From: Sorangiineae bacterium NIC37A_2
GTDB lineage: Bacteria > Myxococcota_A > Polyangia > Polyangiales > Polyangiaceae
Direction of reading: 5' to 3'
Assembly (NCBI GenBank): GCA_002085155.1
Contig: NASX01000004.1
Location: 62,001 to 126,000 of the forward strand
DNA length: 64,000 nucleotides
Shown in pieces: positions 1,779 to 18,321 of the stretch; the first letter of the stretch is position 1, and each line of letters opens with the position of its first letter. A program made the translations under genes and the position numbers. Under the pieces are notes generated by a model. That model did not search any database. It was given only the letters and a program-made list of their open reading frames with translations, and was not told where the DNA came from.

Positions 1779-2215
1779 GCAGCGGGCGGGGGGCTCAGAG
1801 AATTGTTTCGGGATCTCCTGGACCGGGGGACGGGCGCCCCCAAGGACCCCACCCGAGGGGCAGGGGAGCGACGGGGCGAGGGCCCGTTTTGCCTTGAGAT
1901 TTCGGATGTTTCGATCTGCGCAAAGTCTGCGGGGGTGCCCGGGCTCCCCGACGGGGTCAAAATTTTCAGTCGAGTCGTAGAATTGCGGGATAAAGCTGAG
2001 TCATTTCGCTGGGTTGAGGGGTCACCACGCGATCCGATTTACTTTTCCTGAACGGGACCGCATAACCCCGCCCGCAACCCCGAGCGGACTCCACCCGACT
2101 GTGGCCTTTGTTTTGGCGAATCGGTTCGCCAAAGGGCTCAGACCCGGCAGTCCTTTCGACAGCTTGCAGCGCAAGTCGCGAAAGGTGTGAGGTCCCCCGA
2201 GCCGGTCCAACCAAG
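1779..2215. other. 437-bp intergenic leader upstream of the act-cox operon
   Basis: No convincing gene. The first half (about 1800-1960) is very G/C-rich, with several runs of G and C that can pair. The second half is more A/T-rich (around 1960-2045) and is the likely promoter zone of the respiratory operon; TAGAAT at 1978-1983 resembles a -10 hexamer but has no convincing -35 partner. A perfect hairpin lies at 2112-2133. The promoter assignment is inference. Confidence 0.5.
2112..2133 (+). promoter_or_regulatory. Perfect 9-bp inverted repeat in the act operon leader
   Basis: TTTGGCGAA (2112-2120) and TTCGCCAAA (2125-2133) flank a TCGG loop, 83 bp before actA. There is no T-run after it, so it is not an ordinary terminator. 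It could be an operator for a dimeric regulator or a 5'-UTR RNA hairpin; the sequence alone does not decide. Confidence 0.45.
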
Positions 2216-2866
2216 ATGAAGCTGTTCGTATTCCCACGCTGGGCCAACAAGACCCGGCAGATTTTCGGCGTCGCCTTCGCTGGTATGCCGATCTATCTGA
2301 CCGCTCTCGTCACCTTCGGCTTCTCACCGAAAACTACCGATGTGGGATACCAGCCAAAGCAGCCGGTCCCCTACAGTCACGCTCTCCACGCAGGTGAGAT
2401 GGGCCTCGACTGCAAATATTGTCATAACACCGTGGAGCAGTCGTCCCACGCTGCGATCCCCCCGACGCAGACGTGTCTAAACTGTCACACGTTGGTCCAC
2501 CCCGAGAGCTCGAAGCTCCTGCCGATTCGGGAGAGCGCCGCGACGAACCTGCCGGTCGAGTGGGTCAAGGTGCATAACCTCCCGGACTACGTTTACTTCA
2601 ACCACAGCGCGCACGTGACGCGTGGTGTTGGCTGCGTGTCCTGTCACGGCCGCGTTGACCAGATGGAAGAAGTCTACCAGGACCAGCCACTCAGCATGAG
2701 CTGGTGTCTCGACTGCCACAACCAGCCCGAGAAGAACCTGCGTCCCCCGGAAGAGGTGACGAACATGAACTGGAAGCCACCAGGGGATGCCGTCGCGTAC
2801 GGCAAGGCGCTGCGTGAGCAAAACAACATCAATCCACCGACCGACTGCTCCACATGTCATCGATGA
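2216..2866 (+). CDS. actA: ACIII subunit ActA, pentaheme cytochrome c
   Basis: 216 residues: a short N-terminal membrane segment (GVAFAGMPIYLTALVTFGF) and then a periplasmic domain with five CXXCH haem c sites: CKYCH, CLNCH, CVSCH, CLDCH and CSTCH. Extra His residues (YSHALHAG, FNHSAHV) are candidate distal ligands. Five haems plus position directly before an ActB-type protein identify the pentahaem subunit of alternative complex III, which passes electrons from quinol oxidation toward cytochrome c or the oxidase. Start at 2216 gives the usual N-in anchor; the ribosome-binding site is weak. The stop overlaps the start of actB. Confidence 0.93.
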   Translation: MKLFVFPRWANKTRQIFGVAFAGMPIYLTALVTFGFSPKTTDVGYQPKQPVPYSHALHAGEMGLDCKYCHNTVEQSSHAAIPPTQTCLNCHTLVHPESSKLLPIRESAATNLPVEWVKVHNLPDYVYFNHSAHVTRGVGCVSCHGRVDQMEEVYQDQPLSMSWCLDCHNQPEKNLRPPEEVTNMNWKPPGDAVAYGKALREQNNINPPTDCSTCHR

Positions 2867-5866
2867 ATTCCCAGCCCAAAAAGCCCAAGTATTGGCGCAG
2901 TCTTGCCGAGCTCGAGGGTGATCCCGAGTTCTCGGAGTACGTAGCCCGAGAGTTCCGCGAGCCGCTCGAGCAGACTCCGCTGTCGGACGCCGGACGTCGC
3001 CGGTTCATGCAGCTGATGGGCGCGTCCTTCGCGCTCGCTGGCTGTCACTACCGCGAAGAGAAGATCCTCCCGCACACCTCGCGTCCCGACGGGCAGATCC
3101 CCGGCGTGCAGACCTCCTACGTGACGGTGATGGACGTCGCAGGCGTCGCGACTCCGCTCGTGGCGACGAGCTACGACGGTCGTCCGATCAAGGTCCGCGG
3201 CCATCGCGAAGATCAGGCCTCGCTGGGCGGGACCGGTCCCTTCCACGAAGCGTCCATCTTGGGCCTCTATGATCCGGATCGCAGCCAGAAGGTGATGCAG
3301 GGTCAGACGCCGTCGACCTGGGAAGCCTTCGATGGAGCTCTTCTCGCTGCATACACCGCGGCCCAGAAGGCGGGCGGTGAGGGCTTTGCGGTCCTGAGCG
3401 GGGCGCACTCGTCTCCGACGCTCGCTCGTCTGCGCAATGAACTGAAGACGGAGCTGCCCCAGGCGGCTTGGTACGTGTACGAGCCTTCCCACGCTCCGGG
3501 TAAGGAGCGGGGAGCCGAGCTGGCTTTCGGCAAGCGCGTGCGTGAGCTCGTTTCGCCCGAGAAGGCGGACGTGATCGTCGCCCTCGACTCCGATCTGATC
3601 AGCGCCCAGAGCCCGAGCGGCCTCGCCTACGCGCGCAAGGTCTCCGAGCGCCGCGATCCCGACTCCGACTCGATGAGTCGAATCTACGCTTTCGAGTCAT
3701 TGCTCAGCGAGCTCGGCAGCCTCGCCGATCACCGCGTCGCCGTGCAGCCCTCGAAGATCGCTGCGATCCTCGCCTTCCTGGAGGGCACGATCGGGAGCGA
3801 GCTCGGGCGTGCGACGATTCCCGCGCCGAGCGCTGATGTGCTCGGTGCTGAGCTTCACAAAGTGCTCAGCGTGGTGGTTCGTGAGCTCCTTGAGAAGAAG
3901 GGCAAGAGCCTCGTCACCCTCGGCTCCCGTTACGGCGCGGAGCTCCACGCCTCGGCGCACCGTCTGAACGTGCTGCTCGGAAACGTCGGCAGCACGGTGC
4001 GCTACGTCGAGCCGAGCGAAACGCTCTCGGGCGGCGTCGACGATCTCGCAGCGCTCGTTGCGGACATCGACGCGGGCAAGGTCAAGACGCTCCTGATCCT
4101 CGGTGCAAACCCGGTTTACTCTGCCCCCGCTGACATTCCGTTCGCGCCCGCGCTCGGCAAGGTCGAACAATCGTTCCACCTCGGCCTCTACCGCGACGAG
4201 ACGGGCGAAAAGTGCTCGTGGCACGCGCCCGAAGCGCACTTCCTCGAGGTGTGGGGCGACGCTCGGGTTCAGGACGGCACCGTGCGCATCGCGCAGCCGC
4301 TCATCGAGCCGCTGCTCGGAGGGCGCGCGGCGATCGAAGTTCTGGCTCGCCTCTTGGGCGCGCCGAACCCGAGCAGCCAAGCGCTTGTGCGAGCCACGTC
4401 TCACCTCCCGACCGACAAGCTGTGGCGCGCCGCAGTGCACTCGGGTCGTTATGGCGCAGCAGCGAATGAGGTGGCGGTCGAGATTCAGGCCGCGTCGGCC
4501 TTCGAGCTGCCGAGCGCTGGTGAGCTCGAGGTCATCTTCGAGACGGATCCGGCGGTCTTCGACGGTCGCTTCGCGAACAACGGCTGGCTCCAAGAGCTGC
4601 CGCATCCTCTCTCGAAGCAAACCTGGGGCAACGCGGCTCTCGTCGGTCCCGCGACCGCAGAGAAGCTGGGTCTCGGTGACGGTCACCTCTGCGAGGTGAC
4701 GATCGAAGGCCGCTCCGTTTCGCTCCCGAGCATCATCTCCCCTGGACAGGCCGAGGGCACGATCGCGCTGACGCTCGGTTACGGGCGGACTGTCGCGGGT
4801 GTCGTCGGTGGCTTCTTGAACCCCGCCGAGCCCGTCGAAGTCTCCGGTGTCGACGTCTACAAGGTTCGCCCCTCGAAGGCGCCCTTCCTCGCTTCAGGGA
4901 GCGTCAAGAAGACGGGCGGTCGCCAAGAGCTCGCCATCACCCAGGATCTCTGGGCCATCGATGCGATCGGCAAGAGTGGTCAGAAGCAGCGCGAGGATCA
5001 GCTCGTGCGCGAGACGACGCTCGCCGACTACAAGGCGCACCCGGACGGCATCCAGCACAAGGTCCATCATCCGCCGCTCCTGAGCCTCTGGCAGCCGCCG
5101 GTCAGCTACGAGGGCCACAAGTGGGGCATGGCCGTCGACCTCAACAAGTGCACCGGCTGCGCCGCGTGTATTGTCGCCTGCCAGTCGGAGAACAACATCG
5201 CGGTTGTCGGCCGCAGTGAAGTCACCAAGGGCCGCGAGCTGACCTGGATCCGCGTCGAGCGCTACTACAAGGGCGACGCCAAGAAGGCGAGCGTCCGGCA
5301 GCAGCCTGTCATGTGCCAGCAGTGCGAGAACGCACCTTGCGAGCAGGTGTGTCCCGTGGGCGCGACCATGCACACCGAGGAAGGCCTCAATGACATGGTC
5401 TACAACCGCTGCATCGGTACCCGGTACTGCTCGAACAACTGCCCCTACAAGGTCCGTCGCTTCAACTACCGGAACTATAACCTCGAGACGATCGGCACGA
5501 CGCCTTACACCGGCACCGACGATCGTCGCGCCAAGCTGAAGGCGATGGCGTTCAACCCCGAGGTCACCGTGCGCGGCCGCGGCGTGATGGAAAAGTGCAC
5601 CTTCTGCGTGCAGCGCATCCAGAACGCCAAGATCGTCGCCAAGAATCAGCGCCGACCCCTCAAGGACGGTGAGATCAGCACGGCCTGCGAGGACGCCTGC
5701 CCCTCTGGTGCGATCGTCTTCGGAGACCTGAACGACAAGAACAGCCGCGTGGCGGCTGCCCAAAAGGTGCCTCGCGCTTACGAGCTCCTCCAGGAGCTGA
5801 ACAACCGTCCGCGCGTGAACTACCTCGCTCGCATTTCAAACCCGCATCCGGAGCTCTCAGAGGCAG

Positions 5867-5892
<26 letters not shown>
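2854..5892 (+). CDS. actB: ACIII subunit ActB, molybdopterin oxidoreductase-like/Fe-S protein
   Basis: 1012 residues, fusing a catalytic-like MoCo oxidoreductase domain (about 50-680) to a ferredoxin-type domain (about 740-980). [18 protein letters not shown] is a Tat-type signal that also has a lipobox-like LAGC. The Fe-S part carries [24 protein letters not shown], a three-Cys [11 protein letters not shown] group, and CTFC plus CEDAC: 15 cysteines, fitting three [4Fe-4S] and one [3Fe-4S] cluster as known for ActB. In this family the Mo-like domain holds no cofactor; that is family knowledge, not visible here. Overlaps actA by 13 nt; an ATGA start at 2863 is an equally good alternative. The Fe-S wire links ActA to the quinol-oxidising membrane subunits. 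Confidence 0.93.
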
Positions 5893-7237
<1,345 letters not shown>

Positions 7238-7252
7238 TGGGGCGACTAAGTC

Positions 7253-8476
7253 ATGAGTGACTCTGAGAAACCGCTAGCTACTGAAACCCCGCTCTACGGG
7301 CTCATCGCCGAGTACGACAACCCGACCGCGCTCGTACACGCTGCGCGCAAGGTGCGCGACGCGGGGTTCCGTCGCTGGGACACTTATACGCCGTTCCCGA
7401 TCCACGGCATCGAGAAGGACATGGGCATCCGGATGACCAGGCTGCCCTGGCTCGTCCTCGGGTTCGCCCTCACCGGGATGGCGGTCGCGACCTACTTCCA
7501 ATACTGGACCAATAGCGTCGACTACCGCTGGATCATCTCAGGTAAGCCGTTCTGGAGCTGGCCCGCGAACGTTCCGATCATCTTCGAGATGACGATCTTG
7601 TTCTCGGCCTTCGCGGCCATCGGCGGCATGCTGTTCTTGAACAACCTGCCGCTCCCGGCGCACCCGCTCGATCTGAAGGAGCGCTTCCGCAGGGTCACCG
7701 ACGACAAGTTCTTCCTCGTGATCGAGGCGAGCGATCCGAAGTTCGACGAGCGCGACACCCGCGGGCTCTTGGCCGCGACGAACCCCGTCGTGCTCGACGA
7801 TGTCCTCGAGGACCGCGTCACGAGCGACCGGATCCCCGCTCCGCTCATCTACACCCTGGTCATTCTCGGTGCGGTCAGCCTGATCCCCTTCGCGTTCATT
7901 GCGAAGGCCCGCGCAGCGAAGACGACCGAAGGTCGTGTGCACGTGGTCTGGGATATGGACTTCACCCCTGCCTACAAGGCGCAGGAAGGGAACCCCCTGT
8001 TTGGTGACCAGCGCTCGATGCGCACGCCGCCGGAAGGCACCGTCGCTTTGGGCCAGCTGCACGACGACGAGCACCTTTACACCGGCAAAGTCGGTGATGA
8101 GTGGGCCTCCAGCTTCCCTGAGTCGCTCGCGCTCAGCGAGGCGACGATGGAGCGAGGCAAGCAGCAGTTCGGTATCTACTGCACGCCCTGCCACGGCCAA
8201 CTCGGTGATGGAAACGGCATCGTCCACCAGCGCGCTTCCAAGCTGAAGCAGGGCTGGGTTCCGCCGAGCGATCTCCATCAAACCTACATCAAAGAGCAGC
8301 CCGCTGGGCAGATCTTCGGGGCGATCACGAACGGCGTGCGCAACATGCCCGCCTACGGACCGCAGATTTCGGCTGAAGATCGCTGGGCCATCGTCCTTTA
8401 CCTCCGTGCTCTGCAGAAGAGCCAATCCGCGAGCGTCAACGACCTGACCGACGCCGAGCGAGCGCAGCTCCAATAA
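7253..8476 (+). CDS. actDE: ACIII ActD-ActE fusion (DUF3341 membrane protein + monohaem cytochrome c)
   Basis: 407 residues combining two normally separate subunits. Residues about 10-180 are the DUF3341/ActD part: LYGLIAEYDNPTALVHAARK, then two transmembrane helices (LPWLVLGFALTGMAVATYF and IIFEMTILFSAFAAIGGML). A third helix at about 198-222 (APLIYTLVILGAVSLIPFAF) anchors a periplasmic cytochrome c domain with CTPCH and the distal Met in NMPAYGPQI, i.e. ActE. The frame is continuous without a stop between the two parts. It starts 15 bp after actC and ends 9 bp before actF, so no separate actE exists here. ActD is peripheral in ACIII; ActE is the exit haem. Confidence 0.92.
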   Translation: MSDSEKPLATETPLYGLIAEYDNPTALVHAARKVRDAGFRRWDTYTPFPIHGIEKDMGIRMTRLPWLVLGFALTGMAVATYFQYWTNSVDYRWIISGKPFWSWPANVPIIFEMTILFSAFAAIGGMLFLNNLPLPAHPLDLKERFRRVTDDKFFLVIEASDPKFDERDTRGLLAATNPVVLDDVLEDRVTSDRIPAPLIYTLVILGAVSLIPFAFIAKARAAKTTEGRVHVVWDMDFTPAYKAQEGNPLFGDQRSMRTPPEGTVALGQLHDDEHLYTGKVGDEWASSFPESLALSEATMERGKQQFGIYCTPCHGQLGDGNGIVHQRASKLKQGWVPPSDLHQTYIKEQPAGQIFGAITNGVRNMPAYGPQISAEDRWAIVLYLRALQKSQSASVNDLTDAERAQLQ

Positions 8477-8485
8477 GGGTCTCTC

Positions 8486-9730
8486 ATGGCTGATCAACAT
8501 CATTCAAAATCGGACTCGCACGGCGGCCACGACGCGGCCCCGAAGCTCACGGATTCGATCCGTCTGTCGGGCGCGGACCTGTCGCTCTCGAAGACCGCCT
8601 TCGCGGTCGGTGTGGTCGGAATCGGCGGAGCCATCGCTCTCGGCGGCGGTCTGTTCGGTAAGCAGTTCCAGCACTCCTACCTGACGGCGTTCATGTGGGC
8701 TCTCAGCATCACGCTGGGTGCCTTGTTCTGGGTCACCCTGCAGCACCTCGTGAACGCTCGCTGGAGCATCGTGGTGCGTCGCCTCGGCGAGTTCTTGGCT
8801 CAGGGCGTCGTCCTCTTGGCCCTCTTGGCCATTCCGCTTCTGATTCCGGTCCTACAGCACAACGACACCCTGTTCCGCTGGCTGAACCACGACACGATTC
8901 ACGGCATCAGCTCCAAGACCGCGTATTTGAACCCGAGCTTCTTCCTCGGGCGCATGGTCTTCTACTTTGCCTACTTCGCGCTCATGGCGACCTTCTGGCT
9001 GAAGAAGTCGCGCGAGCAGGAGAAGGGTGGCGGCGAGGAGCTCACTCGTTCCCTCCAGGGCAAGGCAGCCCCGGCCATGATCGTGTTCGCTCTTTCGGTG
9101 ACCTTCTGTGCGATCGACTTCTTGATGACGCTCGACCCGATGTGGTTCTCGACCATCTTCGGCGTCTACTACTTCTCGACCTGCGTCCTCACGTTCCACT
9201 CGGTCCTGGCGCTGTTTGCGATGTGGCTCCAGAAGAAGGGTCACCTCACGAGCGCCATCACCACCGAGCACTATCACGACATCGGGAAGATGATGTTCGC
9301 GTTCACGGCGTTCTGGACGTACATCGGCTTCTCCCAGTTCATGCTGATCTGGTACGCGAACATCCCGGAAGAGACGGCTTGGTTCCGAGACCGCCTCGAG
9401 GGGAACTGGTTGAGCGCGACTCTCGTGCTCGCCGCGGCGCACTTCGTGATCCCCTTCTTCGGGATGATGTCCCGCGAGATCAAGCGCAACAAGACGACGC
9501 TCGGTTTCTGGGCCGTCTGGATCCTCGTGATCTGTTGGTTTGACATGTACTGGCTCGTTGCGCCGAACCTCCACAAGGGCGGCATGGCGATCGGCCTCGT
9601 CGACATTCTTGCTTGGGTTGGCGTGGCCGGCCTGCTTCTCGGATTCGTCCTCAGTAAGGCGAAAGACACCAACCTGATCCCGACTGGGGATCCGCGGCTC
9701 GGCCGCTCGCTCACCTTCCAGAACATCTAA
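8486..9730 (+). CDS. actF: ACIII subunit ActF, second NrfD-like membrane subunit
   Basis: 414 residues with about ten hydrophobic helices (LVLAAAHFVIPFFGMMSREI, LWVTLQHLVNARWSIVVRRL-like region, YANIPEETAWF). The conserved block TLDPMWFSTIFGVYYFS and WYANIPEETAWF are hallmarks of ActF. It is homologous to ActC but in the known complex lacks a defined quinol site and may take part in proton translocation. The N-terminus is His-rich (HHSKSDSHGGHD). Start ATG at 8486 follows actDE by 9 bp. Confidence 0.93.
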   Translation: MADQHHSKSDSHGGHDAAPKLTDSIRLSGADLSLSKTAFAVGVVGIGGAIALGGGLFGKQFQHSYLTAFMWALSITLGALFWVTLQHLVNARWSIVVRRLGEFLAQGVVLLALLAIPLLIPVLQHNDTLFRWLNHDTIHGISSKTAYLNPSFFLGRMVFYFAYFALMATFWLKKSREQEKGGGEELTRSLQGKAAPAMIVFALSVTFCAIDFLMTLDPMWFSTIFGVYYFSTCVLTFHSVLALFAMWLQKKGHLTSAITTEHYHDIGKMMFAFTAFWTYIGFSQFMLIWYANIPEETAWFRDRLEGNWLSATLVLAAAHFVIPFFGMMSREIKRNKTTLGFWAVWILVICWFDMYWLVAPNLHKGGMAIGLVDILAWVGVAGLLLGFVLSKAKDTNLIPTGDPRLGRSLTFQNI

Positions 9731-9739
9731 GGAAAAGAC

Positions 9740-10339
9740 ATGCAGAGCGCGCACACGGGGAACGAACCCGATTACGTCAACAACGGAGCACTGGCTTTGG
9801 TGCTCGGGCTTGTGGCCGTCTCGACCGCGGCGATCTGTATGGTCGTTTACGCGTTGGTCCGGGATGAGGTGCATGCAGTGAGCGCGGAGCGCGACGCCAC
9901 GCAGGACGCTCCTCTGCGGCACTTGCGTGCAGCTCAGCAGAGCGTTCTCGAGGCGAATCCGGCCTATAAGGACCGGGCGACCGGGACCGTCAGCCTCCCC
10001 ATCGGACGCGCGATGGCGCTGACCCTCGAAGCCGTTCGTCGCGATCGCGCTCAGCTGAGCCCTTGGACCGCTGGTGCGACGGGTGCCTCCGCGGCAGCGC
10101 AGCCCGAAGGGGCTGAGGCTGAGGTGACCCCTCCGAACGAGGTCGGTGAAGGAGTTGCTGAGACTGGTTCGGTCCTCTCCGCAGAGACGAAAGAAGCGCC
10201 CGCGGCGGGGGCGGCGCCCGAAGGCTCGGGCGTCGAGAAGAATCCTGCCCTCGAACCGTCCTCACAGACTGCCCAAGAGCCGGCCGACGTGCCGGTCCCC
10301 ACTCCGGCCGAAGGCCAAGCTGCGCCCGCGACTCTTTGA
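9740..10339 (+). CDS. Small single-helix membrane protein of the oxidase operon
   Basis: 199 residues. One transmembrane helix (about 18-40, ALALVLGLVAVSTAAICMVV), then a periplasmic part with the short conserved-looking block GTVSLPIGRAMALTLEAV (about 82-99), and a low-complexity Ala/Pro/Glu tail. Short proteins with a VRIPIDRAM-like motif after one helix occur near SCO/cox genes in many bacteria; the block here matches that pattern. The tail (about 110-199) is unusual. It lies 9 bp after actF and 17 bp before the SCO gene, so it probably belongs to ACIII/caa3 assembly or structure. No function is proven. Confidence 0.75.
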   Translation: MQSAHTGNEPDYVNNGALALVLGLVAVSTAAICMVVYALVRDEVHAVSAERDATQDAPLRHLRAAQQSVLEANPAYKDRATGTVSLPIGRAMALTLEAVRRDRAQLSPWTAGATGASAAAQPEGAEAEVTPPNEVGEGVAETGSVLSAETKEAPAAGAAPEGSGVEKNPALEPSSQTAQEPADVPVPTPAEGQAAPATL

Positions 10340-10356: not shown

Positions 10357-11217
10357 ATGCTCCGCCGTGTCTTTCATTCGCTCGCCCTCGGGGCCGCTCT
10401 CGCGGTCTCTGGCGGAATCGTTTGTGCGGCGCCGGTGGACTCTTCTGAGATCGTCGATCGTACGGAGCGGGCGCCGAAGCGCATGGAAGGCGTGGACGTC
10501 GAGGAGAAGCTCGGCGCGACCCTTTCGACCGCGCTCGCATTCAAGGACGAGCTCGGTCGGGATCGACTGCTCGGTGAGGTGCTCTCGAGCGGGCTGCCGA
10601 CGATTGTGACGCTGAACTACTCGGATTGTCCGATGCTCTGCAGCATGCAGCTGAACGGACTCGTCGCGAGCATGAAGCAGATCGATCTCGAGCTCGGCCG
10701 CGACTATCGCATTGTCACGGTCTCCCTCGACCCGAAGGACACGACTGAGCGCGTCGCGCGCATGAAGTCTCGTTACCTCTCGATGTACAGCCGCCCCGAG
10801 TCGGACGCGGGTTGGACATTTTTGACCGGCAGCGAGCAGAACATTCAAGCGGTCGCAGCGCAGCTCGGAGTCACCTACAACTACAACGAAAAGCGAGACG
10901 AGTACGTCCATCCGGCCGCCTTTGCGGTCCTGACCCCGTCTGGCGTCGTCGCCCGTTATCTCTACGGCCTCGAATACCACCCGAAGACCCTCCGCCTCAG
11001 CTTGATTGAGGCATCCGAAGGGAAAGTCGGGTCCAGCCTCGATCGCCTGATCCTTTACTGTTTTCACTACGACGCGAGCGAGGGCAGGTATGCCCCGGTT
11101 GCGATGAACATCATGCGCCTTTCGGGCGGCGCTGGGGCCTTGGCCCTGGGCGGCATGCTGACCGGACTTTGGCGCGCAGAGCGCAAGCGGAAGCCCCTAT
11201 CGAAGACATCATCATGA
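10357..11217 (+). CDS. SCO1/SenC family copper chaperone
   Basis: 286 residues. N-terminal signal peptide (LRRVFHSLALGAALAVSGG), then a thioredoxin-like fold with the Cu-binding CxxxC in NYSDCPMLCSMQ and the third ligand His in DEYVHPAAFAVL. SCO proteins deliver copper to, or reduce the cysteines of, the CuA site of oxidase subunit II, which is the next gene. A C-terminal helix (SGGAGALALGGMLTGLW) may anchor it. ATG at 10357 is chosen over an upstream TTG because the signal peptide begins there. Its stop overlaps the start of coxB as ATGA. Confidence 0.92.
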   Translation: MLRRVFHSLALGAALAVSGGIVCAAPVDSSEIVDRTERAPKRMEGVDVEEKLGATLSTALAFKDELGRDRLLGEVLSSGLPTIVTLNYSDCPMLCSMQLNGLVASMKQIDLELGRDYRIVTVSLDPKDTTERVARMKSRYLSMYSRPESDAGWTFLTGSEQNIQAVAAQLGVTYNYNEKRDEYVHPAAFAVLTPSGVVARYLYGLEYHPKTLRLSLIEASEGKVGSSLDRLILYCFHYDASEGRYAPVAMNIMRLSGGAGALALGGMLTGLWRAERKRKPLSKTSS

Positions 11218-12212
11218 TTTCGAATCTACTCGCTAGCACCGCGACGGATGCGTCGCTCCCCAAGAGTCCGCCATCGAACGACACCTGGATGCCGATCGAT
11301 GCGTCTACGTTCGCGAGCCACGTCGACGGTCTCTACGACTTCTTGTTCTGGCTCTCCGTCGTCGCCGCGCTGTCCATCTACGGCGTGATGTTCTACTTCA
11401 TCGTGAAATACCGGGCGAAGAGCCGTGAGGCCTCGGAGGTCGGCGATGACGTGAGCCATCACAACACGGCGCTCGAAATCACCTGGTCGGTGATTCCGCT
11501 CCTGTTCTGCGTGGGCATCTTCGTGAGCGGCTTCAAGGGCTACGTCGATCTCCGCACGGCTCCCCGGGAGGCGCTCGAGATTCACGCTCAGGGCCAGAAG
11601 TGGAAGTGGCTGTTTACCTACCCGAACGGCCACGTCGACAGCGAGCTCCATGTCCCGGTCGACCAGGACGTGCGCATCATCATTCAGTCGGTGGACGTGC
11701 TCCACAGCCTGTTCATCCCCGCATTCCGCACCAAGATGGACGCGGTGCCGGGTCGTTACACGGACCTTTGGTTCCGCGCGACCAAGAGCGGTGAGTTTCC
11801 CGTCTTCTGCGCTGAGTACTGCGGCACCTCACACTCGGACATGATCGCGAAGGCGGTCGTGCACGAGCCGGGTGGCTACGACGCCTGGATGGAGGAGATC
11901 GTCGCTCGCCTCGACAACATGCCGCCTGTCGAGCTCGGCAAGCTCATGTACGACCAGCAGGGCTGCAAGACCTGTCACTCAGTGGACGGCTCGACGCTCG
12001 TCGGTCCGAGCTGGCAAGGTCTGTGGGGTAAGACCCGCACCTTCGCCGACGGGAGCAGCGCTGTTGTCGACGAGAACTACATTCGCAATTCGATCAACGA
12101 TCCCATGAGCCAAGTGGTCCAGGGATTTGCCCCTTCGATGCCGACCTACCAGGGCAAGCTGAGCGACAAGCAAATCAACGGCATCATCGAATACATCAAG
12201 TCTCTCAAGTAA
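11214..12212 (+). CDS. coxB: Cytochrome c oxidase subunit II, caa3 type, with fused cytochrome c
   Basis: 332 residues: two N-terminal helices (FLFWLSVVAALSIYGVMFYF and ITWSVIPLLFCVGIFVSGF), a cupredoxin domain with CuA ligands in DVLHSLFIP and CAEYCGTSHSDM (H, C, C, H, M), and a C-terminal cytochrome c domain with CKTCH (about 259) and the axial Met in FAPSMPTYQG. The fused cytochrome makes this caa3. The start at 11214 gives a 4-nt ATGA overlap with the SCO gene; a longer upstream frame is not subunit-II-like. Confidence 0.95.
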   Translation: MISNLLASTATDASLPKSPPSNDTWMPIDASTFASHVDGLYDFLFWLSVVAALSIYGVMFYFIVKYRAKSREASEVGDDVSHHNTALEITWSVIPLLFCVGIFVSGFKGYVDLRTAPREALEIHAQGQKWKWLFTYPNGHVDSELHVPVDQDVRIIIQSVDVLHSLFIPAFRTKMDAVPGRYTDLWFRATKSGEFPVFCAEYCGTSHSDMIAKAVVHEPGGYDAWMEEIVARLDNMPPVELGKLMYDQQGCKTCHSVDGSTLVGPSWQGLWGKTRTFADGSSAVVDENYIRNSINDPMSQVVQGFAPSMPTYQGKLSDKQINGIIEYIKSLK

Positions 12213-13940: not shown

Positions 13941-14969
13941 ATGAGTGAGGCACATTCAGCGGCACACGGCGGCCACGACCACGCGGCAGAAGCGGTTTAC
14001 CCGTATACGCCGCACCACTTCCACGAAGCGAAGCAGCACTTCGAGTCAGGCAAGATGGGCGTTTGGCTCTTCTTGGTGACCGAAATTCTCTTCTTCTCGG
14101 GGCTGTTCTGCGCATACGTCGCGTACCGCGCACAGCACCCAGAGATCTTCTACTGGGCGCATTTTTACCTGGATACGTTCTGGGGCGGCGTGAACACGGT
14201 GGTGCTCATTCTGTCGAGCTTCACGGCTGCTTGGGCGGTCCGGAATGCCCAGCTCGGTCAGGTCAAGCTGCTTCGCACCAACATCATCCTGACCATTGGT
14301 GGTGCGCTCGTGTTCATGTGCGTCAAGTACGTCGAGTACGGGCACAAGTTCCACGATGGGCTCCTGCCCGGGCGACACTTCGCTCCCTCCCACGAAGTTT
14401 GGGAGACGGAGTCGTTCCGGCACAAGCACCCGGAGGCGGCTGAAGCAGCCAAGCGCATCTCGGCGCGCCTCGCTGAGCGCGCTCAGAAGAAGGCAGCCAG
14501 CGCCCAGATCGTCGATACCATCGAGTCGACCAAGACTCCGGTCGCTGCGATTCCCGTGAGCCATCACGAGGGCGCTGAGCCGGAAGCGGTCGTGCTTCCT
14601 CCTGAAGATCCCGCGATGGCTGCTCTGCCGGACGATGTCTGGCTCGAGACGCAGGTCCGGACCCTGTCGGGCGCTGAGCGGCGGCCGCTGGAGATGGCCG
14701 GTGTGATCCGGAAACCCGCCGACGGGCCCATCACGTTTGCCCGTCCCGAGCGCGCAGGCATCTTCTTCAGCATCTATTTCTTCATGACCGGTCTGCACGG
14801 CGTTCACGTCGTGATCGGCATCGGTCTTTGGATCTGGATGCTCGTGATCGCGAGCCGTCGCAAGTTTGGAGCGAGCTACTTCGGCCCGATCGACTTCACC
14901 GCCCTCTATTGGCACTTGGTCGATCTGATTTGGATCTACCTGTTCCCGATGCTCTACCTCATCCACTGA
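13941..14969 (+). CDS. coxC: Cytochrome c oxidase subunit III with a large insertion
   Basis: 342 residues; most five-helix subunit III proteins are around 200. The helices are recognisable (MGVWLFLVTEILFFSGLFCA, NTVVLILSSFTAAWAVRNAQ, IFFSIYFFMTGLHGVHVVIG, DFTALYWHLVDLIWIYLFPM). Between helix 3 (about 115-131) and the next helix (about 273) there is a hydrophilic stretch of roughly 130 residues, rich in Ala/Glu/Pro, where relatives have a short loop. The N-terminus is His-rich (HSAAHGGHDHAAEA). The oxidase role is secure; the inserted segment is unexplained. Confidence 0.93.
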   Translation: MSEAHSAAHGGHDHAAEAVYPYTPHHFHEAKQHFESGKMGVWLFLVTEILFFSGLFCAYVAYRAQHPEIFYWAHFYLDTFWGGVNTVVLILSSFTAAWAVRNAQLGQVKLLRTNIILTIGGALVFMCVKYVEYGHKFHDGLLPGRHFAPSHEVWETESFRHKHPEAAEAAKRISARLAERAQKKAASAQIVDTIESTKTPVAAIPVSHHEGAEPEAVVLPPEDPAMAALPDDVWLETQVRTLSGAERRPLEMAGVIRKPADGPITFARPERAGIFFSIYFFMTGLHGVHVVIGIGLWIWMLVIASRRKFGASYFGPIDFTALYWHLVDLIWIYLFPMLYLIH

Positions 14970-15018: not shown

Positions 15019-15603
15019 ATGTCGGAAGAGACGAAAGAAGAGAGCCAAACGGGCGAAGGAACCTCCGTCGACACCACGGCTGGCGGTGCGGAAGACGCGG
15101 TCGAGACCAAGGTCGAGAGCGCTGAGGTCGCAGGCCCGTCGAGTGAGAAGAGCCAGGAGGCTCCCGCGGACACGGAGACGGAGACCAAGACGCTCGAGAG
15201 CGCTCGCCCTCCGGAGACGAAGGAAGCCGAAGGGCAGGTGGCCGCGGCGAGCGGGCACGGCGGACACGGCCATGGAGAAGGACACGGACACCCCCAGCCC
15301 ATGTGGATGCTCGTCGGTGTGCTTGGCGCCCTGATTGTGCTCACGGTCCTGACGGTGGCCGTTACGGCCATCGATTTGGGAGCTCAGGGTAACCTTGTCG
15401 TCGCGATGATCATCGCCACGGTGAAGGCGATCTTGGTCATGGGCTTCTTCATGCACCTGTTCTGGGACAGCCGGTTCAATCTGATCGCCTTCGCGAGCTC
15501 GTTCTTGTTCGTCCTGCTCTTCTTGAGCATGTCGGTGCTCGACCGCAGCGAGTACCGTCCCACAGTGCTCGAGTGGGAAGCGGACTCGGCAGCCAAGAAG
15601 TAA
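15019..15603 (+). CDS. coxD: caa3-type oxidase subunit IV with long N-terminal extension
   Basis: 194 residues. The C-terminal ~95 residues form the usual prokaryotic subunit IV: three helices, including LVGVLGALIVLTVLTVAVTA and AILVMGFFMHLFWDSRFNLI, where the FFMHLFWD block is diagnostic. The first ~95 residues are an acidic, Thr/Ser/Ala/Glu-rich disordered region ending in a His/Gly cluster (GHGGHGHGEGHGHPQP), about doubling the normal length. Last gene of the operon; a strong terminator starts 37 bp after the stop. Confidence 0.88.
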   Translation: MSEETKEESQTGEGTSVDTTAGGAEDAVETKVESAEVAGPSSEKSQEAPADTETETKTLESARPPETKEAEGQVAAASGHGGHGHGEGHGHPQPMWMLVGVLGALIVLTVLTVAVTAIDLGAQGNLVVAMIIATVKAILVMGFFMHLFWDSRFNLIAFASSFLFVLLFLSMSVLDRSEYRPTVLEWEADSAAKK

Positions 15604-17598: not shown

Positions 17599-18321
17599 AT
17601 GAAAAGAAGAATCTCTGTCTCCGTCGTTTCACCGTTTCTCTTTGGGCTTGTGAGCTTGGGCTGCGCCGCTACGCAGGGCGACGAAGGTGTCGGTTCACTC
17701 ATCGCGACCGAAACCGAGCCAAGCGGCGAGAACTGTCCGAACGGCGGTGTGAAGCTCAATCATGGCACCGACGACGACTTCGACGATGTGCTCGACGAGG
17801 AAGAGATCCAGGGCGTTGAGTACATTTGCAACGGGGCCACAGGTCCTGTGGGCCCTGCAGGGCAGGACGGCGAGGATGGGGAAGATGGGGCGACGGGTCC
17901 GACCGGGCCGAGCGGCCCGACGGGTCCACAGGGGCGCACGGGCGAAACCGGTCCCGAAGGACCCTCGGGCGCAACGGGCCCAACGGGTCCGGCTGGTCCC
18001 GAGGGCCCCACGGGCGACGTCGGGCCCGAAGGGCCTCCGGGGGAGACAGGTCCAACGGGACCGACCGGCGACACGGGTCCCGAGGGCCCCGAGGGGCCCC
18101 AGGGACAGCCGGCGGGCCCGAAGGGCGATACCGGCGACAAGGGGGACCCAGGCTTTACCTCGCTCATCAACATCGTCGACGAACCTCCGGGAGCGAACTG
18201 TCCGAACGGCGGGCTCAAGATTCAGTCTGGGATCGACAACGGGGACGGGGGTGGGTTCGCGCGCAGCGGATCTCTCGAGCCTGGCGAGGTCGATCAGACC
18301 CAGTATCTATGCTCGGTCTAA
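17599..18321 (+). CDS. Collagen-like (Gly-X-Y) surface lipoprotein
   Basis: 240 residues. Signal peptide with lipobox VSLGC. An N-terminal module (about 43-78: [19 protein letters not shown] ... YICNG) is followed by 35 Gly-X-Y triplets, largely GPT/GPE/GPA/GET, with a single-residue break at [10 protein letters not shown] second copy of the first module follows ([19 protein letters not shown] ... YLCSV). The Cys-flanked CPNGG...C module resembles DUF7151-type repeats. Expected to form a triple-helical stalk on the cell surface. ATG at 17599 has an AGGAG site. The 22-bp tandem repeat lies in its leader. Confidence 0.9.

Follow-up and report, generated by a model that had tools for sequence, protein, structure and literature searches.

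What is encoded by the small gene that separates the genes for alternative complex III (ACIII) from those for a caa3-type oxidase in Sorangiineae bacterium NIC37A_2, and to which of the two complexes does its product belong? The window, a stretch of 64,000 nucleotides from contig NASX01000004.1, carries the gene order actA, actB, actC, actD-E fusion, actF, actG, SCO, coxB, coxA, coxC and coxD, in which the gene in question, here named actG, occupies the junction of the act and cox genes.

The gene and its operon

The open reading frame (ORF) at positions 9740-10339 on the forward strand begins with an ATG, contains 199 codons and a stop, and has an AGGA a few bases upstream. Its start is located 9 bases downstream of the actF stop, which ends at 9730. 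Twelve further loci of our family search have, in the corresponding position, a protein whose core was aligned by tblastn with 30-49% identity, and the ORF is therefore not a chance frame. The first-pass annotation described the product as an unassigned small membrane subunit at the junction of ACIII and the oxidase. The location and the membrane character were borne out: the ORF lies between actF and SCO-coxB, and the protein has a single hydrophobic segment, with 19-residue Kyte-Doolittle windows above 1.6 beginning at residues 13-24.

The AlphaFold model of the protein, built on an alignment of 54 sequences, has a mean pLDDT of 70.3 and a pTM of 0.35, so that its local structure alone is meaningful. 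It consists of a helix at residues 15-72, a short hairpin, a helix at residues 88-110 and an unstructured tail, with block-mean pLDDT values of 98 and 97 over residues 21-40. Hydropathy and the first modelled helix together predict a single transmembrane helix at approximately residues 15-41 (9782..9862, forward strand), the topology of which is not fixed by the charges that flank it. The block GTVSLPIGRAMALTLEAV (residues 82-99) contains the signature motif GTVSLPIGRAM (residues 82-92; 9983..10015, forward strand), for which the family consensus is G.V.IPI[DE]RAM; in the LPIGRAM of residues 86-92, a glycine occupies the position where most relatives have Asp or Glu. The second modelled helix begins at this motif (residues 88-110; 10001..10069, forward strand). 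Residues 107-199 (10058..10336, forward strand) form an acidic Ala/Pro/Glu tail with 22 Ala, 13 Pro, 13 Glu and a net charge of -12, which is predicted to be unstructured. CXXCH is absent from the sequence and the tail is haemless; the hydropathy and the model thus describe a protein with one transmembrane helix and no redox cofactor.

The neighboring genes are all located on the forward strand. The multihaem cytochrome c ActA (2108..2866), whose cytochrome character agrees with Pfam, is given from its longest-ORF start, and the true start may be downstream. The genes actB (2854..5892) and actC, encoding an NrfD-like membrane subunit (5867..7237), were named from gene order and conservation. 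A fusion of actD and actE (7253..8476) encodes an ActD domain (PF11821) and a monohaem cytochrome c (PF13442). Pfam gave no match for the window ActF, an NrfD-like membrane subunit (8486..9730) that was recognized from its matches to the PDB ActF chains 6f0k_F, 6lod_F, 8k9e_F and 6btm_F. Directly 3' of actG is the gene for a SCO1/SenC copper assembly protein (10357..11217, with an alternative TTG start at 10336; PF02630). One gene further is coxB, which encodes a caa3-type subunit II that ends in a cytochrome c domain (11214..12212; PF00116, PF00034 and TIGR02866).

Relationship to ActG

On sequence grounds, the window ORF is ActG, a subunit of ACIII, and the label "unassigned" can be abandoned. 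The conserved core of its family ends in YGWVD..G.V.IPI[DE]RAM, and P87, A91 and M92 are invariant among the 54 sequences of alignment A6, which comprises the window protein and 53 relatives, one of them from the Chloroflexota, chosen among the 80 loci taken from the wider scan described below. The first match of the A6 profile in the PDB was the ActG chain 8k9e_G of the Chloroflexus aurantiacus ACIII (E=1.1e-9, best domain 2.5e-8), and the alignment lies on the motif, outside the transmembrane helix. A profile of 17 sequences from the family of the window matched the same segment of 8k9e_G with E=0.0045, second in the list. When the two profiles were compared by hhalign with a group of five Chloroflexota ActG proteins, the probability was 95.0% with the window-family profile and 98.3% with the wide profile. 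In one Chloroflexota genome, the protein next to ActF aligns to 8k9e_G over 112/112 residues with zero mismatches. The link to ActG is carried mainly by about 45 residues, including the IPI-x-RAM helix near the C-terminus of the core, which the window protein has with Gly at the Asp/Glu position.

Searched alone, the window protein had no match in Pfam or the PDB and a chance match only in NCBIfam. The 17-member family likewise found no convincing model in Pfam or NCBIfam (best E 0.00082, to a model with an unrelated name). A designed coiled coil that scored slightly better than ActG with the 17-sequence profile was set aside as membrane-helix or composition bias, and so were T-type calcium channels (E=2.7e-6 with the A6 profile), which indicate the extent to which a profile score may be raised by nothing more than a membrane helix.

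The ActG proteins of C. aurantiacus (Caur_0627 and Caur_2139; PDB 8k9e chain G) share with the window protein one N-terminal transmembrane helix and a C-terminal G.V.IPIDRAM helix. They also share its gene position, either after actF or with actABE before SCO-cox; in C. aurantiacus, actG is reported to follow actF in one operon and to precede SCO and the cox genes in the other (PMC3150298). We have filed the window ORF as ActG because of the profile matches and because the same two gene positions recur. The C. aurantiacus protein has 112 aa and ends soon after the motif. The window protein differs in its acidic tail of 93 residues, in the greater length of the segment that connects the helix to the motif, and in having Gly where the C. 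aurantiacus motif has Asp.

The ActG of Rhodothermus marinus could be compared by its description only: it was predicted to be a subunit with one helix, encoded in some but not all act clusters, was seen by mass spectrometry but gave no density in the structure, and according to the authors did not appear to be essential for catalysis (PMC5928083). The R. marinus ActH is likewise an extra, non-universal ACIII subunit, described as a three-helix bundle on the periplasmic side for which the authors found no homologs in other prokaryotes (PMC5928083). An identity with ActH was rejected, as hydropathy and the model give the window protein a transmembrane helix and no bundle.

A small single-helix protein that lacks density in the R. 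marinus complex, and that has no recognizable counterpart after ActF at 11 of 70 places examined below, might also be a non-stoichiometric factor for the assembly or membrane insertion of ACIII. We judge this improbable given that four PDB entries (8k9e, 8k9f, 8x2j and 9ilt) contain ActG as a chain and that its peptides are reported to rise together with those of ActA, ActB and ActE (PMC9316378).

Distribution and gene order

In the GTDB family of the window, 48/108 genomes had a match at E<=0.1, in many cases a weak one, and 26 of the 30 loci taken adjoin ActF, the window included. Many of the weak matches fall in the low-complexity tail. Four loci (L026, L027, L029 and L030) contain no act or cox gene, look like chance matches to the tail and were left out of the alignments. 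When 377 Myxococcota genomes were searched with a profile, 49 had a match at E<=0.001. Each of the 30 loci taken from this phylum search, the window's own among them, adjoins ActF; 12 of its genomes, again including that of the window, were already in the family search.

A scan of genome contigs with the single window protein produced no match, and we therefore used a motif-rich alignment of four sequences for the wider scan, which covered 84,980 species genomes and from which 80 of 294 relatives were taken. ActG adjoins actF in 77/80 of these loci, all from other genomes. The exceptions are two loci near the start of a contig (L070 and L076) and one without an act gene upstream (L136). The gap between the ActF stop and the ORF start, estimated with mechanically chosen ORF starts, ranges from -136 to 151 bases with a median of -7, and SCO or CoxB is located downstream in 71/80 loci. 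Conservation together with the act-cox operon, on which the first-pass annotation had made its reading depend, was thus confirmed. The Ala/Pro/Glu tail that it considered distinctive has turned out to be a lineage-variable rather than a defining feature: the number of residues after the motif varies from 9 to 147 in the 80 loci, with a median of 42.

The 80 loci come mostly from the Acidobacteriota, Verrucomicrobiota and Planctomycetota, and the relatives found by the wider scan also include Hydrogenedentota, one member of the Anaerolineaceae, Myxococcota and Deltaproteobacteria. A loose form of the motif fits 76/80 loci. As defined by this motif, the ActG family spans at least five phyla. Three studies regard ActG as an ACIII subunit that is either optional or limited to a species (PMC9316378, PMC5928083, PMC3534657). 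One of these states that it is absent from the R. marinus ACIII and describes it as specific to C. aurantiacus (PMC9316378), a restriction that is too narrow for the motif-defined family. In the open-access literature we found no report of ActG in the Myxococcota or of its haem-bearing forms, although this does not show that none exists. The family thus delimited provides ActG with a testable definition.

ActF was found in 176/377 Myxococcota genomes at E<=1e-30. We considered 70 ActF places, which are not a random sample because 40 of them were picked by hand down the list, passing over some genomes with known ActG, and added to the 30 best. The gene after ActF matches the ActG HMM at 59/70 places at E<=0.05 and at 55/70 at E<=1e-3 (E-values that refer to the small set of frames at the 70 loci), and 41 of the latter 55 matches cover the motif. 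The HMM was built from 79 of the 80 wider loci (without L076) and 24 rows of alignment A3; if the 10 places that contributed to it are removed, the corresponding counts are 49, 45 and 31 of 60. At the same 70 loci, there was no off-place match to the HMM at 1e-3. SCO follows ActF directly, without ActG, at 4/70 places (L216, L217, L225 and L231), and 7 more have no HMM match after ActF, which indicates that ActG is dispensable or unrecognizable in some lineages.

Association with ACIII or with the oxidase

The frequent presence of SCO or CoxB downstream would also suit a caa3 oxidase protein whose gene merely happens to adjoin actF, be it a subunit or an assembly factor, such as one that works with SCO to deliver copper. 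One locus of the wider scan (L136) can be cited in its favor: the genome's sole ActG match is located before SCO-coxBACD, away from both of its actF loci. We nevertheless find such an oxidase protein very improbable, since one of the chains in the ACIII structure from photosynthetic C. aurantiacus is ActG and the family is not confined to caa3 genes. Three Verrucomicrobia loci (L090, L116 and L137) keep the motif with cbb3-like oxidase genes alongside. Their subunit I has a match to Pfam COX1 and one to the ccoN model that falls short of the curated cut-off; two of these loci (L116 and L137) also have a FixO-like subunit.

The Chloroflexota provide a second set of such loci. A search of 201 genomes identified 18 with an ActG match, or 17 after a chance match in a 948-aa frame (L257) was dropped. 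ActG adjoins an act gene in 25/26 loci, the remaining one being the chance frame L257, and follows ActF in 17/26. In ten of the loci in which ActG follows ActF (L255, L256 and L258-L265), neither SCO nor CoxB was detected over about 1.5 kb downstream. In eight other loci, ActG stands between ActA and SCO-CoxB, and the stretch examined contains no ActF match. Because the motif is kept beside cbb3-like genes, or where SCO and CoxB were not detected, we conclude that ActG belongs to ACIII rather than to the caa3 oxidase.

Published work on C. aurantiacus suggests with which part of ACIII it is associated. The second (Cr) operon is described as actABEG without actCDF, and the ActABEG peptides of the first operon are reported to peak together, apart from ActCDF (PMC9316378). 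Taken together, these two observations indicate that ActG goes with the periplasmic electron-transfer subunits.

In genome G450, the only ActG match (L136, 5893-6264) has no act genes in the 6 kb upstream, and there is no ActG in the flanks examined at the two actF loci of this genome.

Haem-bearing relatives

The cytochrome c domain of CoxB, which is absent from the window ActG, resembles the end of ActG-type proteins in some Myxococcota. In the assemblies of six genomes (G344, G110, G115, G212, G261 and G220), the protein after ActF ends in a CoxB-like cytochrome c domain, and in two of these (G261 and G220) the IPI-x-RAM motif is no longer clear. A CXXCH is also present in the HMM-matched ActG of G340, from the genus of G110. 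Adjacent to the gene in G110, G261 and G220 are SCO and a CoxB with a cytochrome domain of its own.

Three genomes of one genus (G118, G123 and G274) have a different arrangement. The protein after ActF contains the motif [MI]PI[DG]QAM followed by a cytochrome c domain, and no CXXCH was found in the adjacent CoxB, a frame of 253 residues. The ActG HMM did not match the G118 protein (L235), and its reading as ActG is accordingly based on its place and on the PI[DG]QAM motif. CoxB keeps its cytochrome domain in two genomes of the same family (G133 and G260) and one of the same order (G128). The identity of CoxA to that of the window is 37-40% in G118, G123 and G274, as compared to 58-62% in G133, G260 and G128. 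Given this different CoxA, the arrangement looks like an oxidase swap accompanied by the gain of a domain at the ActG place. At its N-terminus, the protein in these three genomes has a hydrophobic stretch that ends with G.GC and may represent an imperfect lipobox.

In a tree of 29 cytochrome domains, those of G118, G123 and G274 cluster with CoxB domains from the order to which these genomes belong (93/95). The six remaining ActG domains form a separate, weakly supported group (86/78). A single origin was recovered in 0/200 bootstrap trees, with a range of 2-3 changes; the strongly supported branches alone allow one origin. A further combination was observed in G230, where a protein resembling subunit I of bd-type oxidases (PF01654; L165 7096-9468, on G230:C5) carries an ActG-like segment and a cytochrome c domain at its C-terminus. 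This cytochrome domain is the sister of that in G212 (96/89). The same contig contains an actABCDEF cluster of its own upstream, with no ActG match after its ActF.

Haem of the c type is attached in the periplasm. The cytochrome c domains at the C-termini of ActG-type proteins therefore place the C-terminal half of ActG in the periplasm, and we infer that the C-terminus is likely to be near the electron exit of ACIII. Haem-bearing ActG proteins may transfer electrons to the oxidase.

The first-pass annotation proposed a linking or assembly role for the protein. In its strongest form, ActG would be the physical linker of an ACIII-caa3 supercomplex, gripping the oxidase with its acidic tail, which would agree with the position of the gene at the junction, the CoxB-type cytochrome c domains on ActG in several Myxococcota, the genus in which the cytochrome domain is found at the ActG place and is missing from the adjacent CoxB, and the G230 protein that joins an ActG-like segment and cytochrome c to a subunit of a bd-type oxidase. 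We regard such a linker as possible and yet rather doubtful, as the conserved part is kept where the nearby oxidase is of another type or was not detected, and the tail is short in many relatives. These observations speak for a basic role inside ACIII, leaving a connection to the oxidase as a possible, secondary role to which the haem-bearing variants point indirectly.

Proposed role

We consider it quite probable that the actG product is a membrane-anchored subunit of ACIII, a quinol:electron acceptor oxidoreductase, with a periplasmic C-terminal part and a motif helix that docks near the haem exit. The single N-terminal helix would hold the protein in the membrane, and the IPI-x-RAM helix would most likely dock on the electron-transfer module formed by ActA, ActB and ActE. 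The variable tail would then point toward the electron acceptor. In most lineages, ActG may serve to stabilize the exit side of the complex. ActG is reportedly a contributor to the stability of ACIII. In a few Myxococcota, where a cytochrome c domain replaces the tail, ActG itself could relay electrons.

In the window, where the tail is acidic and haemless, the haem relay would stay on ActE and CoxB, and one guess is that the tail might dock on or tether toward the basic face of a cytochrome domain. In Flavobacterium johnsoniae, deletion of ActE is reported to have left cytochrome aa3 activity unimpaired (PMC8552683).

A broader and more tentative hypothesis, to which we give somewhat less than even chances, is that ActG represents an interchangeable adaptor at the electron exit. 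The conserved periplasmic helix would be the fixing and the C-terminus a socket for nothing, for an acidic tail or for an oxidase-type cytochrome c, and the domain would move onto ActG when the caa3 oxidase is swapped for one without a cytochrome domain. The haem-bearing variants in the relatives are the more interesting part of our findings: located in one genus beside a cytochrome-less oxidase, they mark a specific possible meeting place of ACIII and the oxidase.

Other features of the locus and its relatives

Several minor observations concern the surrounding genes. The actD-actE fusion protein of the window has 407 aa, and the same kind of fusion has been reported in Melioribacter roseus (PMC3534657); in one of the haem-bearing relatives (G212, L166), actD and actE are two separate frames. 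Farther downstream in the window, coxC (13941-14969) appears to be enlarged by some 120 residues (approximately 149-273), around which the match splits into two pieces in many other genomes. The coxD product (15019-15603) begins with an acidic low-complexity extension of approximately 80 residues that resembles the tail of ActG in the same operon, and an ORF at 17599-18321 encodes 240 aa with long collagen-like GPT/GPE/GPA triplets. Finally, in genome G339 (L237), actF is followed by a cytochrome c and then an ActG-like motif, LPAIPVAVAMDVL, which is the opposite order to that in the haem-bearing ActG proteins.
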